DNA of 36,247 nt from Chthonomonadales bacterium (GTDB lineage: Bacteria > Armatimonadota > Chthonomonadetes > Chthonomonadales > CAJBBX01): the NCBI GenBank assembly GCA_012517255.1, contig JAAYVH010000298.1, forward strand, positions 1 to 36,247, in the 5' to 3' direction. Below the pieces are notes generated by a model that saw nothing but the letters and a program-made list of their open reading frames with translations, was not told the DNA's origin and ran no database searches. The stretch's first letter is position 1; the number at the start of each line of letters is the position of its first letter. Both the position numbers and the translations under genes were made by a program. Positions 16,218 to 20,967 of this stretch are shown here, one piece after another.

Positions 16218-17543
16218 TCAGTTCCTGGTCGGCATGCGCTCAGTAAGCGGGATCTTGCCGGCGATCATTCGGGTCGCCTGGCCCACCAGCCACAGGTAGT
16301 GATCCGACGGCAGTCCCTCGTAGGTCAGGAAGCTTGTTCCGCCGGTGTTGGGCGGATCGTTGGTGCACTTGAAGATGGCCGTGCCCTCGTCCACCTCGTC
16401 GAACATAGCCTGATAGACCATGGTTGCGCCTGCGCGCCGTGCCGCGACATACTGCGCCCACAGGAATGCGCCGCCCCGCCGCGGTATCTGGTCCTGCGGG
16501 CTGTCGGGCTTCATGTTGTGCCAGCTGAAGCCGGGGAAGACCACCGGCATGTACTCCACATGGCGCTCGCGGCACCATGCCATGTCCGGCTCGAAGATCA
16601 TGCGACCGAACCGCGCGGCGTCTTCGACCGTGCCGAACCGGCCCACCATCCACGGGCTGACGATGTCGGCTGCTGCGATGAGCCTGTGCAAGAGCGGATC
16701 GGCCACGGCATCGTTCTTCAGCTCGCGCCAGTACGTCGGAACCCCCAGCATCACGGTGCAGCCGCCATACTTCGGATCGTTCTTGAGGAAGTCCACGAGA
16801 TCGAGCCCCTCCTGCAACGTGTAGCGGCGACCGTCGCTGAACCCGAAGCCCCACACCGCGACGACCGGCTTTCCTCGGTGCCGGAGGTATGCCGGATCGG
16901 CAGTGATGCGCATGCGCTCGACGAGCAGTCGCCAGTCCTCCTTCACCCGATCCATCTGTCCCGCACCCATCCCCGAGAGGTCATACATGACGGCATAGGC
17001 CCGGCCATACCGATTGGCGCCCTCGCGGCAATGCCCGAGCACGGTCGTTGCCTGGCGGAGGCCCAGAGCGTGAAACGTCTCGCCGGCGAACCGCTGCACG
17101 AACACGCCATCCAGTCCGTGCTCCTTCATCCATCGGAAGTGCCGCAGGACCGTCTTCATGTTGAAGGAGCTGAACACCTGAGCGACCCTGCCATCGGCGT
17201 GCCGGAAGGCGGTGTCATACCGCTCGTCGGCGTCGAGTTCCGACATGTCGGGCCAGAAGTCCACTGTGGCCGTGCCGGGGCGCATGTCGCCGCGGCCCCA
17301 GTGGAACCAACCGCGTCCTGATCCGTCGCCCGGGGCAGTGAACCAGCCCTGATAGCCGCTCATGACCTTGCCGGCGAGAGTGGTCCGATCGACGCCTGCG
17401 GCGGATGGGCCGGAATAGGGTCGCATGGTGGCGGCGATCACCTGTTCGCGGTCTGGCTGCTGGCTCACGGCGACCCCCACGCAGGCAGAGGCGAGTGTGC
17501 CGAAGGCCAGAACCGGAAACGCCAGTCGGGGCAGCGCATCCAT
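16218..17543 (-). CDS. Secreted GH71/GH99-like glycosidase family protein
   Basis: The 441-residue product has an N-terminal hydrophobic export signal (LAFPVLAFGTLASAC; a lipoprotein Cys is possible but the box is weak). It then carries the signature KVMSGYQGWFTAPGDGSGRGWFHW typical of GH71/GH99-like proteins that act on alpha-glucans, alpha-mannans or related polymers. The barrel continues with DMSELD, SSFNMKTVLRHFRWMKEHGLDGVFVQRF, RGKPVVAVWGFGF and MVYQAMFDEVDEGTAIF, whose acidic residues are candidates for catalysis. The ATG at 17543 follows AGGGAG by 6 bases. The upstream AAA+ fusion gene stops at 17545 (TGA, one base, ATG), so translation of the two is probably coupled. Confidence 0.87.
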   Translation of the reverse strand: MDALPRLAFPVLAFGTLASACVGVAVSQQPDREQVIAATMRPYSGPSAAGVDRTTLAGKVMSGYQGWFTAPGDGSGRGWFHWGRGDMRPGTATVDFWPDMSELDADERYDTAFRHADGRVAQVFSSFNMKTVLRHFRWMKEHGLDGVFVQRFAGETFHALGLRQATTVLGHCREGANRYGRAYAVMYDLSGMGAGQMDRVKEDWRLLVERMRITADPAYLRHRGKPVVAVWGFGFSDGRRYTLQEGLDLVDFLKNDPKYGGCTVMLGVPTYWRELKNDAVADPLLHRLIAAADIVSPWMVGRFGTVEDAARFGRMIFEPDMAWCRERHVEYMPVVFPGFSWHNMKPDSPQDQIPRRGGAFLWAQYVAARRAGATMVYQAMFDEVDEGTAIFKCTNDPPNTGGTSFLTYEGLPSDHYLWLVGQATRMIAGKIPLTERMPTRN

Positions 17544-17544
17544 A

Positions 17545-20500
17545 TCAGTCTCCCTCTTCGCTCTGGTTGAAATGAGCGCGACCATAGGCGAGCAGGAAGT
17601 CGTCTATGTCTCCCGCCAGGACCGCTTCGGTATCCTGCGTCTCCTGCCCCGTTCGCGGGTCGCTGACGCGCCGTGGTGCGTGCAGTGAATACGTGCGGAC
17701 GATCGGCGGCAGATCCTTGGCCCTGGGGGCGGCATCCTCACCATCCAGAGCAGCCATGTGGTCGAGGTTCAGGATCTCTGCGTCCGCCTCCGTCTGGCTG
17801 AGCCGTACCAGGGCGATCTGCGTGCGGCCGGAACCGTCGTCCGCGAGCTTGTGCAGTCCGGCCTCGCCCGCAAGGAGCGCCGCGGTTGCGGAACCCCGGA
17901 CGGTGATCACCGTCCGGGTGTGGCCCTGCTCTGTGAGCGCCGCCACCAGACCCTCTGGACGATCGATAGTCTCGATCTGCTTCCATGGCTTGTTCCCGCG
18001 ACGATGGGCTTCTGCGTCGAAGGCTGCAACGCTGATGGCATGTCCCTTACGCTGAGCATAGGCAGCGTACATGCCGATCAGCTTGATCGGCCACGCCGAC
18101 ATCATGCCATGCGCGGGATGGGATCCGACCGGCGAGATCTCCAGGCTCACCCTGTCCTCCCAGCCGTTGATCTCCGCGAGCATCTCGATCTCGAGGTAGT
18201 CGACGTTGCGACGGAGCTCGATCGTCGAAGCGACAAGCTCGCCCATGTAGGCATCGTTGTGCTCGCGACGACACATCACTGCGAGCTCCTCCAGATAGTC
18301 AGCCCGGTCGCGGAGTTGCTCGACGCGGCGGATTACGCGATCCGTTGCGTGCGCTTGCATCCATGTCTCTTGCTGCGACTCCGAGTCCACAAAGCCGGGC
18401 GCGCGCGTCTCCGCGAGCAGCGCTGACAGGCGGTCACGCAGTTCGCCCATCTGCTCGCCCTCATCCCACGCATGGAGCCGTCGCCGCAGGTCCCCCAGCA
18501 CATCAATCATCTCGTCGGAGCTCATGGCCACCGACGGGCGTTCCCCCTCGCCGGTGACCCGGTATCGCGTCGTCTCGATGGTCCGGGAGTCGACCAGCAC
18601 AGACCCATCCTTGACACGGAGCCGCACCAGGTCGTGGGGATCGGCGGGATGCTCGGCCAGACGCCGTGACAGCGGCAGGATGATGCGCTGCTCGATGGCC
18701 CGCTTCAGCGGACGCGCGCCGTACTCGACGTTGAAGCCCGTATCGAGCAGGAGCTCAAAGACATCCTCGTCGAGCGTGAGCGTGATCCCGCGGCGAGCAA
18801 TGCCCTCACGCTCGAGGAGCTTCCGCACCTCCGCCTCTGCGATCCTCAGCATCGCATCGCGATCGAGATGCCGGAACACAACGATCTTGTCGAGGCGGTT
18901 CACGAACTCGGGGCGGAAGTTCGACTCGACCACATGCCGGTAGTACCCTTCGATCGCAGTGAGACCCTCCGCCGGACGCAGCCCGAGCTTGCGTTGCTCT
19001 CGCGAGGAAGCTCCAAGGTTGCTCGTCATCACGACGATGGCGCTGCGGAAATCGGCGGTCCTGCCCGCAGCGTCGGTCAGGCGTCCTTCGCCGAGAACCT
19101 GCAGCATGATGTCGAAGATACTGCGGTCGGCTTTCTCGAACTCGTCCAGCAAGACCAGTGAGAACGGCTGCGAGCGAATGCGGGCGGTCAGCTCGCCCTC
19201 GGCGCGGCCATCCGCAGAGCCGATGAGCTTGCCGACGGTGAACGGCTCGGAATACTCGCTCATATCGAACCGGATCATGCGGTCCGGCGATCCGAAGAGG
19301 TAGGCAGCAATCTGCTTGGCCAACTCGGTCTTGCCGACACCGGTCGGCCCGACGAACATCAGGCATGCAAGGGGCTTGTCGGGATCGTTCAGTCCAGCCT
19401 TGATGACCGTGAGCAGATCCGCGACCGCCTGCACCGCATCGGGCTGTCCGATGACGCGCCGACCGATAGCCTCAGCAATCGAAGCCGTGCTCAGGCTCAC
19501 GTGATCCGACAGGATCATCTCGGGCAGTCCCGTGTACCGGGCGAAAGCGAGCGTGGCCGCCTTTCTGTCCAGCACCGGCGCCCGCGCCGATGCGCGTCGA
19601 GCTCCTTTCTGGGGCGACGATTGGTGCTGTCTCGCTGCGTCGAACGTGAGCTGTTCGAGGAACCGCACGGCCTTGCCAGGAAAGGCGCGATAGGGCTGGA
19701 ATCGCCGGCACAGATGATAGATCGCGTCAAAGATGCCCGGGTCAATGCGCACGGAATGCTGGCGCTCAAGATCGGCGGCGACCATACGGATAATGGACAG
19801 CGTGCTCTCCCGGTCGGGCTCTGCGATCTCCATGGTTCGGAACATGGCCGCAAACGACGGGTCGCGGTTGTCGAGGAAGCGGCGTCGTTCGTCGGTGGCT
19901 TCTCCTATGATGGTCACGGTGCCGTCGGCGAGGTAGGGCTTGAGGAACTGCGACATGTTCTGATCGGTCTTGTCGGTTCGGCCTGCGTCGAGCAGTCCGG
20001 CCACGTCGCGGATTACCAGGATGTGCCGCTCCTTGCGCACGGTCTCGAGTACCGAGTGCAGCCGCTCTTGCCACTGGCCGATATAGCAGCACCCGGCGAT
20101 CAGGTGATCGGGCGACGTCTCGTAGACCCTGCGGTTCTTGAGCTCGTCGGGGCAACGGCCTGCAGCGATGCGCCGCACGACCTCGTGGATGACGGCGCTC
20201 TTGCCGCACTCGGATCGTCCGGTGACCAGCACCGACGGCGATGACTTGCTCGACAGGGCGAGCAGCAGTTCCTCCACCTCGGCGCCGCGCCCGTAGGTTC
20301 GGCCAAGCCGCTTGTCGGCCGCCAGCGCCGTCAGGTCCGTGCCAACCTGTCGCAGATCGGCGCCCTGCTCCTGACCATCCGACGTCTTTTTCCTCGCAGC
20401 CGATGGAGTAACCGGCGTGAAGCTGACCTCCAGCTCGTCCAAATGCTCGTGCCTGACAGGCCGGAACTGAAGCAGCTGCTCTGGTGTCATATCGGCACAG

Positions 20501-20967
20501 ACGGCGAGAATCTCGCGCGCCGCAGCGATCCCGAGATCGTCGTCGGGATGCCAGTAGAACTGAAGTCCTTCGTCGCCAATGGCCGGGGCGATCACGAGCC
20601 GCTGGCCATCGGCGTCCGGCGGGTTGACGATCAGGCTCAACACGACGCTGATTGGCTCCTCGCGCCGCCTGCCATGGCGATTGGCAGGGCGGAACTCCAA
20701 CCTGACAGCGTCGAGTCCTTGCTCTGGCCAGTAGTTCGATGCCGCTCGGATCCATTCGGGATCGGCCCAAGGGAGCCACAGCTCGAGCGCTTCACGTATC
20801 TCGGACTTCACTTCCTCGAGCACGGGTCCGTAGGCCGCGAAGCGGGGCGACGCCGGATAGTCGTCGTAGTTACCGTCGATGGGAACGAACTTCGGCACGC
20901 CGGGTAGCGTGACCGTGTAGGTGCCCTGGTCAGTTCGACGGACATATAGACGGAACCGGAGTTTCAT
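17545..20967 (-). CDS. ClpB/ClpA-type double AAA+ ATPase fused to a GGQ-less release factor 2-like module
   Basis: The product has 1140 residues in one uninterrupted frame. Residues 1-210 form an N-domain I do not recognise, and there is no Clp_N repeat. AAA+ domain 1 has Walker A GRSECGKS (250-257) and a pore-loop-like AGCCYIGQWQERL (291-303), but its Walker B reads LVIRDV at 317-322 where ClpB has FIDE. AAA+ domain 2 has GPTGVGKT (540-547), intact LLDEFEKA (606-613), the FRPEFVNRLD finger region and sensor GARPLKR, but GRAEG replaces the aromatic GYVG pore loop. Residues about 821-1065 align with RF2 domains 1, 2 and 4 (RLSALLAETRAPGF, MYAAYAQRKGHAISV, GEAGLHKL), and 1089-1128 with the RF2 C-terminus (VRTYSLHAPRRVSDPRTG, AVLAGDIDDFLLAYG). 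The GGQ domain and the SPF anticodon motif are absent. The ATG at 20967 has only a weak ribosome binding site. The stop is coupled to the next gene. Confidence 0.85.
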   Translation of the reverse strand: MKLRFRLYVRRTDQGTYTVTLPGVPKFVPIDGNYDDYPASPRFAAYGPVLEEVKSEIREALELWLPWADPEWIRAASNYWPEQGLDAVRLEFRPANRHGRRREEPISVVLSLIVNPPDADGQRLVIAPAIGDEGLQFYWHPDDDLGIAAAREILAVCADMTPEQLLQFRPVRHEHLDELEVSFTPVTPSAARKKTSDGQEQGADLRQVGTDLTALAADKRLGRTYGRGAEVEELLLALSSKSSPSVLVTGRSECGKSAVIHEVVRRIAAGRCPDELKNRRVYETSPDHLIAGCCYIGQWQERLHSVLETVRKERHILVIRDVAGLLDAGRTDKTDQNMSQFLKPYLADGTVTIIGEATDERRRFLDNRDPSFAAMFRTMEIAEPDRESTLSIIRMVAADLERQHSVRIDPGIFDAIYHLCRRFQPYRAFPGKAVRFLEQLTFDAARQHQSSPQKGARRASARAPVLDRKAATLAFARYTGLPEMILSDHVSLSTASIAEAIGRRVIGQPDAVQAVADLLTVIKAGLNDPDKPLACLMFVGPTGVGKTELAKQIAAYLFGSPDRMIRFDMSEYSEPFTVGKLIGSADGRAEGELTARIRSQPFSLVLLDEFEKADRSIFDIMLQVLGEGRLTDAAGRTADFRSAIVVMTSNLGASSREQRKLGLRPAEGLTAIEGYYRHVVESNFRPEFVNRLDKIVVFRHLDRDAMLRIAEAEVRKLLEREGIARRGITLTLDEDVFELLLDTGFNVEYGARPLKRAIEQRIILPLSRRLAEHPADPHDLVRLRVKDGSVLVDSRTIETTRYRVTGEGERPSVAMSSDEMIDVLGDLRRRLHAWDEGEQMGELRDRLSALLAETRAPGFVDSESQQETWMQAHATDRVIRRVEQLRDRADYLEELAVMCRREHNDAYMGELVASTIELRRNVDYLEIEMLAEINGWEDRVSLEISPVGSHPAHGMMSAWPIKLIGMYAAYAQRKGHAISVAAFDAEAHRRGNKPWKQIETIDRPEGLVAALTEQGHTRTVITVRGSATAALLAGEAGLHKLADDGSGRTQIALVRLSQTEADAEILNLDHMAALDGEDAAPRAKDLPPIVRTYSLHAPRRVSDPRTGQETQDTEAVLAGDIDDFLLAYGRAHFNQSEEGD

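Follow-up and report, generated by a model that had tools for sequence, protein, structure and literature searches.

The window analysed here, 36,247 nucleotides of a Chthonomonadales genome, encodes a two-ring Clp/Hsp100 ATPase in which motifs of both rings depart from the canonical sequences. A first-pass annotation had read this pattern as a changed mechanism and not as random decay, and the question raised by the locus is what kind of machine, if any, the altered protein represents.

Gene, domain structure and family

The gene occupies positions 17545-20967 on the minus strand as a single long open frame of 1140 codons. The start codon was placed at MKLRF, which coincides with the start of the Chloroflexota orthologs, and full-length orthologs are 36–40% identical to the window protein. 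Pfam identified AAA_2 (6e-42), ClpB_D2-small (6e-15) and AAA_lid_9 (9e-6). The motifs quoted in the first-pass annotation are all present on this strand. The interval it had assigned, 18860-20230, misses a release-factor-like C-terminus; this domain and the loss of the arginine-finger pair in the first ring (D1) are two features that it had overlooked. The features are listed below; the D2 Walker A, arginine finger and sensor 2 were recognised by their motifs in the sequence.

17545-20967, minus strand: coding sequence, 1140 residues, comprising N-domain, D1, D2 and release-factor-like domain
20401-20967, minus strand: N-domain, a repeated beta-beta-beta-alpha-alpha-beta unit, probably HicB/UPF0150-like
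19561-20325, minus strand: D1 AAA+ ring, predicted to bind ATP without hydrolysing it
20197-20220, minus strand: D1 Walker A, GRSECGKS
20071-20091, minus strand: D1 pore loop, CCYIGQW
20002-20019, minus strand: D1 Walker B, LVIRDV (canonical FIDE)
19837-19851, minus strand: D1 arginine-finger site, AAMFR (canonical ERRFQ)
18589-19494, minus strand: D2 AAA+ ring with ClpB_D2-small, predicted to be hydrolysis-competent
19327-19350, minus strand: D2 Walker A, GPTGVGKT
19192-19221, minus strand: D2 pore loop, GSADGRAEGE, in place of GAPPGYVGYEEGGQ
19135-19158, minus strand: D2 Walker B, LVLLDEFE
18976-18990, minus strand: xG[F/L] tripeptide (KLGLR) at the position of the ClpP-docking loop of ClpA/ClpC
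18889-18912, minus strand: D2 arginine finger, PEFVNRLD
18700-18723, minus strand: D2 sensor 2, YGARPLKR
17548-18543, minus strand: release-factor-2-derived domain, consisting of release factor domain 1 and the codon-recognition superdomain, with the GGQ domain missing
17704-17790, minus strand: short linker replacing the ~100-residue GGQ domain of RF2, from alignment with RF2 of the source and related genomes

Relatives were gathered by one scan of 84,980 species genomes, and 79 family proteins were aligned with eight ordinary Clp controls, two of them from the source genome itself (the ClpC-like L001 and the ClpB-like L002). In the tree, a single branch with a support of 100 splits the family from the ClpB/ClpC controls. 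The window protein clusters with the homolog from a second genome of its phylum (G036) and with nine proteins from Chloroflexota, and the pattern described below recurs in relatives from seven or more further bacterial phyla. Within its own phylum the distribution is patchy, with a close homolog in only 2 of 291 genomes. The window protein clears the curated cut-off of none of the named NCBIfam Clp families (bits against cut-off: ClpB 415/1232, ClpA 389/993, ClpV 327/885, ClpK 300/1900, ClpG 293/1900). The ClpA model spans residues 194-769 in a single stretch, while the ClpB model requires two, which is consistent with the absence of the long M-domain. Judged by its sequence relationships, the protein belongs to a distinct family of double-ring Clp/Hsp100 unfoldases. 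A further Clp-like protein of 781 residues, encoded on contig C249 of the same genome (L003), lacks the D1 Walker A and has GFVG in D2.

The first-pass annotation was right that Clp_N is absent and that an unrecognised domain stands in its place. This N-domain, of about 190 residues, is predicted by AlphaFold2 to fold confidently as a repeated unit (pLDDT 88). UPF0150 matches 5 of 29 family members (best 1.3e-6; 0.063 for the window protein alone) and HicB_lk_antitox matches 2 of 29 (3.4e-5), and a fold search of the PDB with the N-domain gave no meaningful match. The domain that replaces Clp_N is probably a duplicated HicB/UPF0150-like module. We note that in a subclade from Verrucomicrobiota and Acidobacteriota (L052, L058, L062, L075, L083) an apparent N-terminal membrane anchor takes the place of the HicB-like domain, and that a mostly myxococcal subclade (L038, L051, L055) has another N-terminal region and no release-factor arm, with the same motif changes in D1 and D2.

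A function based on an operon was rejected: the flanking genes in the window are of carbohydrate, phosphatase and similar types, and the neighbours of orthologs do not recur, with the exception of tandem paralogs (repeated neighbours in Saprospiraceae trace to closely related genomes). Among the ortholog neighbourhoods of the single-gene clade no conserved partner gene was found. A GH99-like gene with a signal-peptide-like start (16218-17543, minus strand) begins 1 nt past the stop codon of the Clp gene, and its likely ribosome-binding site sits within the 3' end of that gene, an arrangement seen in none of the orthologs.

The two AAA+ rings

As the first-pass annotation had proposed, D1 keeps its Walker A (lysine in 78 of 79 proteins) while its Walker B is altered. 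The pair DE occurs in no family member, and the catalytic glutamate, present in all eight controls, is replaced in all 79, mostly by Asn (35), Asp (29) or Ser (10). The accompanying claim that the acidic pair is lost needs to be narrowed. It describes the window, which reads RD, and the catalytic glutamate is indeed gone throughout the family, but the closest orthologs have not lost both acids: the ten aligned members of the window's clade read ED in six cases, DD in three and RD in the window alone. The homolog in G036 reads GD. On this alignment, what the clade shares is Asp in place of the catalytic Glu, and the arginine at the Mg-coordinating position is the window's own among these ten proteins, making the window the extreme case. 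The D1 arginine fingers are also mostly lost, with arginine surviving in 9/79 proteins at one position and in 2/79 at the other, compared with RR in 8/8 controls.

The D1 pore loop carries Tyr or Phe in all ten members of the window's clade, but family-wide an aromatic residue (Tyr, Phe or Trp) is found there in only 39 of 79. The earlier suggestion that one ring grips and the other burns ATP may therefore hold for the window's clade, and is not a rule for the family. Four residues past the pore tyrosine, Trp replaces the Phe of ordinary Clp proteins in 72 of 79 members, and on this count we regard it as a hallmark of the family.

D2 presents a different picture. All 79 proteins keep its Walker A lysine, the DE of Walker B, the arginine finger and the arginine of sensor 2, bearing out the description of this ring as catalytically intact. 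The GYVG pore loop, found in all eight controls, occurs in none of the 79 proteins. D2 had been described as having no aromatic pore loop, which is correct as regards GYVG; across the window's clade, the shortened loop carries one Phe in 5 of the 10 members.

No relative combines canonical FIDE with GYVG, the finding by which the first-pass annotation had proposed to recognise a decayed outlier. Selection is purifying in every domain of the close pair L010/L011, including the release-factor part (dN/dS 0.11–0.19); for L008/L013 the value is 0.09–0.15 in the domains that can be estimated, with synonymous sites near saturation. A decaying Clp paralog, with substitutions in D1 and D2 that represent neutral erosion, would suit the patchy occurrence of the gene in its phylum and a Walker B farther from canonical than in any close ortholog, but we reject it as hardly credible, because the frame is open, the losses are shared by all 79 relatives, the D2 catalytic residues do not vary and close orthologs diverge under constraint. 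From the alignment, the changes in D1 and D2 are a trait of the whole family and not decay, and the protein is very probably a functional remodeller in which D2 is the only motor.

The D2 ring also carries a possible link to ClpP. In Actinomycetota, an LGF-type motif has been used to tell likely ClpP partners from independent unfoldases (PMC10149685). A docking loop of the form [LIV]-G-[FL] is found in the window (KLGLR) and, in similar form, in most of the family: the glycine is present in 70 of 79 members, flanked mostly by I/L/V/M before and F/L after, although most Saprospiraceae members lack the GF pair. The tripeptide aligns with IGL of the source genome's ClpC-like L001, and is absent from most other controls. 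The source genome encodes ClpP. However, the family lacks the GYVG loop that would lie beside ClpP, and the docking loop is for this reason suggestive only, and ordinary threading into ClpP unlikely. We regard a ClpP partnership of the family, as read from these motifs, as rather doubtful.

The release-factor-derived C-terminus

The C-terminal ~330 residues of the window protein are a derivative of RF2. They match PCRF in Pfam (5.2e-6) and prfB in NCBIfam (5.8e-15), and when a profile of the C-termini of 38 family members was searched against the PDB, RF2 chains came first, at 3.1e-32, and RF1 next. A Foldseek search with a structural model computed from the family alignment (pLDDT 89) gave 44 PDB chains at E<=0.001, all of them RF2 or RF1 (RF2 4.8e-13).

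Comparison with release factors of the source and related genomes shows which parts have been kept. The family retains the domain-1 helices, the motifs W...L...Y..WA...G and G....YG.L..E.G.H, and R.Y.........D.RT.........V..G..D.F, and the window itself departs at some of these positions. What the arm has lost is the tip of helix 5 (GGTE/D), the SPF loop and the entire GGQ domain; in the window, both the GGQ catalytic domain and the SPF/PxT codon motif are deleted. The retained invariants look mostly like residues of the fold core, together with two motifs of domain 4, D-x-R-T and R-x-Y. By these comparisons the arm is a disarmed release factor, an RF2 scaffold without its decoding and GGQ parts.

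Three divergent relatives, from Planctomycetota (L022, 9872-12898), Armatimonadota (L027, 9215-12793) and Chloroflexota (L039, 1192-4287), align over the full length of RF2 including domain 3, and lack GGQ. They are an apparent evolutionary intermediate, and because they cover the whole of RF2 without GGQ, their sequences suggest a stepwise history, in which a complete RF2 was fused, catalysis was lost, and the GGQ-type domain was lost afterwards.

Two or three family genes stand in tandem in Verrucomicrobiota, Planctomycetota, Acidobacteriota and Myxococcota. Paralog A (~1100 residues) has an RF-like arm; paralog B (~1100 residues) has a very divergent arm, whose C-terminus has diverged too far to be called a release factor on its own; and paralog C (~780 residues) has no arm. 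Clusters with three paralogs, usually side by side, are found at L018, L019, L020, L021, L026, L034, L043, L044, L049, L060 and L069. In the tree, most copies of A, B and C join their own kind across phyla, and this grouping points to an old, possibly hetero-oligomeric, machine.

Proposed function and comparison with known systems

We propose that the protein is a Clp unfoldase targeted by its release-factor arm, with a static D1, a D2 motor and a possible hand-over to ClpP. We hold this explanation tentatively, at slightly less than an even call. The protein would assemble as a hexamer, in which D1 would hold ATP and act as an assembly platform and, by way of the Tyr/Phe pore loop in the window's clade, as a passive clamp; ATP-driven motion would come from D2. 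The disarmed arm would be a targeting module that brings the motor to its client. It would dock most likely near the ribosomal A site or the factor-binding region, leaving the peptide unreleased, and the docked motor would pull on or remodel a translation-bound client, with the LGL/IGF-like loop permitting substrate to be passed to ClpP. A ribosomal client is our first guess because the arm derives from a release factor, and release factors have the ribosome as their main partner; whether the arm contacts ribosomes is finely balanced, and we lean marginally against it. Loss of trans-translation was ruled out as an explanation, as the source genome has a tmRNA.

The arm may instead have left the ribosome and now serve another substrate, as an adaptor for assembly or client binding, so that the protein would be a specialised remodeller, similar to Clp proteins with exotic adaptor domains. 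The losses of the GGTE tip, SPF and GGQ, which remove the decoding and catalytic motifs, are the reason for considering this, together with retained invariants that are mostly of the fold core; the very divergent arm of paralog B and the armless paralog C point the same way. Against it, the full architecture of domain 1 and domain 2/4 is kept across phyla under purifying selection. We consider such a non-ribosomal arm a serious possibility, and on balance somewhat improbable.

It is improbable that the protein is a mobile ATPase of anti-phage defence, acting by sensing or disabling translation. The patchy distribution would fit, the AAA part of the DolB and PDC-M37B models is matched, and rescue factors have been tied to biological conflicts (PMC6514570). 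However, these matches are limited to a generic AAA segment, PADLOC gave partial AAA matches only and no full-length defence protein, and no toxin, nuclease or recurring defence partner lies nearby; we therefore rejected filing the gene as a known defence system. Phage or viral carriage was likewise rejected, as no relatives turned up in phage records searched by tblastn or in the viral contigs scanned.

Returning to the arm-targeted unfoldase, its most specific form would be a class of ribosome-docked unfoldases. Here the disarmed release factor would recruit a Clp ring, static in D1 and active in D2, to ribosomes that are translating or stalled; the motor would there extract or unfold either the nascent chain or a factor bound to the ribosome, with ClpP as a possible recipient, and in several phyla two or three paralogs would work together as a hetero-oligomer. 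We consider this detailed form unlikely as a whole. Either outcome for the arm would be informative. An arm that binds ribosomes would directly connect translation with ATP-driven unfolding in bacteria, in a way comparable to the pairing of Vms1 and Cdc48 in eukaryotes. An arm that does not would leave the family as a clear example of a release factor recruited as an adaptor, and as a natural experiment on how a Clp ring works when its first ring is dead and GYVG is absent. In both cases the family uncouples three properties that are usually linked in Clp motors, namely hydrolysis in D1, hydrolysis in D2 and the aromatic pore loop of D2.

No description of a protein that joins a translation release factor to a Clp unfoldase was found in the literature searched, whose scope excluded subscription papers and preprints, and the release-factor survey of Burroughs and Aravind (PMC6514570) does not mention Clp. 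The fusion family is apparently undescribed, and its novelty is likely, not certain. With Hsp100/Clp proteins in general it shares the D1 and D2 modules with a Clp-type D2-small domain, but not the catalytic Walker B in both rings or the D2 GYVG. ClpA and ClpC resemble it most directly, with two AAA+ rings without a long M-domain, a tripeptide at the ClpP-docking position and the D2 catalytic set; they differ in that the window protein has lost the D1 Walker B and arginine fingers, has neither D2 GYVG nor Clp_N, and ends in a release-factor-like domain. ClpB, ClpV and ClpI share the double-ring Hsp100 core, but none has a release-factor module. ClpI shows that further Clp classes exist, with or without LGF loops (PMC10149685), but its own ATPase modules and unfoldase motifs are intact, unlike those of the window protein.

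RF2 (prfB) shares with the arm the scaffold of domain 1 and domain 2/4 and the motifs W...L...Y, G.H, R.Y and D.RT, whereas the arm has no GGQ domain, SPF or GGTE tip and is fused to a Clp motor. A division of labour between rings is familiar from the double rings of NSF and Pex1/Pex6, in which one ring binds ATP without efficient hydrolysis and the other provides the power. These belong to the classic AAA clade, however, while the window protein belongs to the Clp clade and its powering ring has no aromatic pore motif. Finally, the eukaryotic release-factor-like protein Vms1 interacts with the AAA+ chaperone Cdc48 (PMC6514570); there the two partners are separate proteins, whereas here the release-factor arm and the Clp motor are combined in one.
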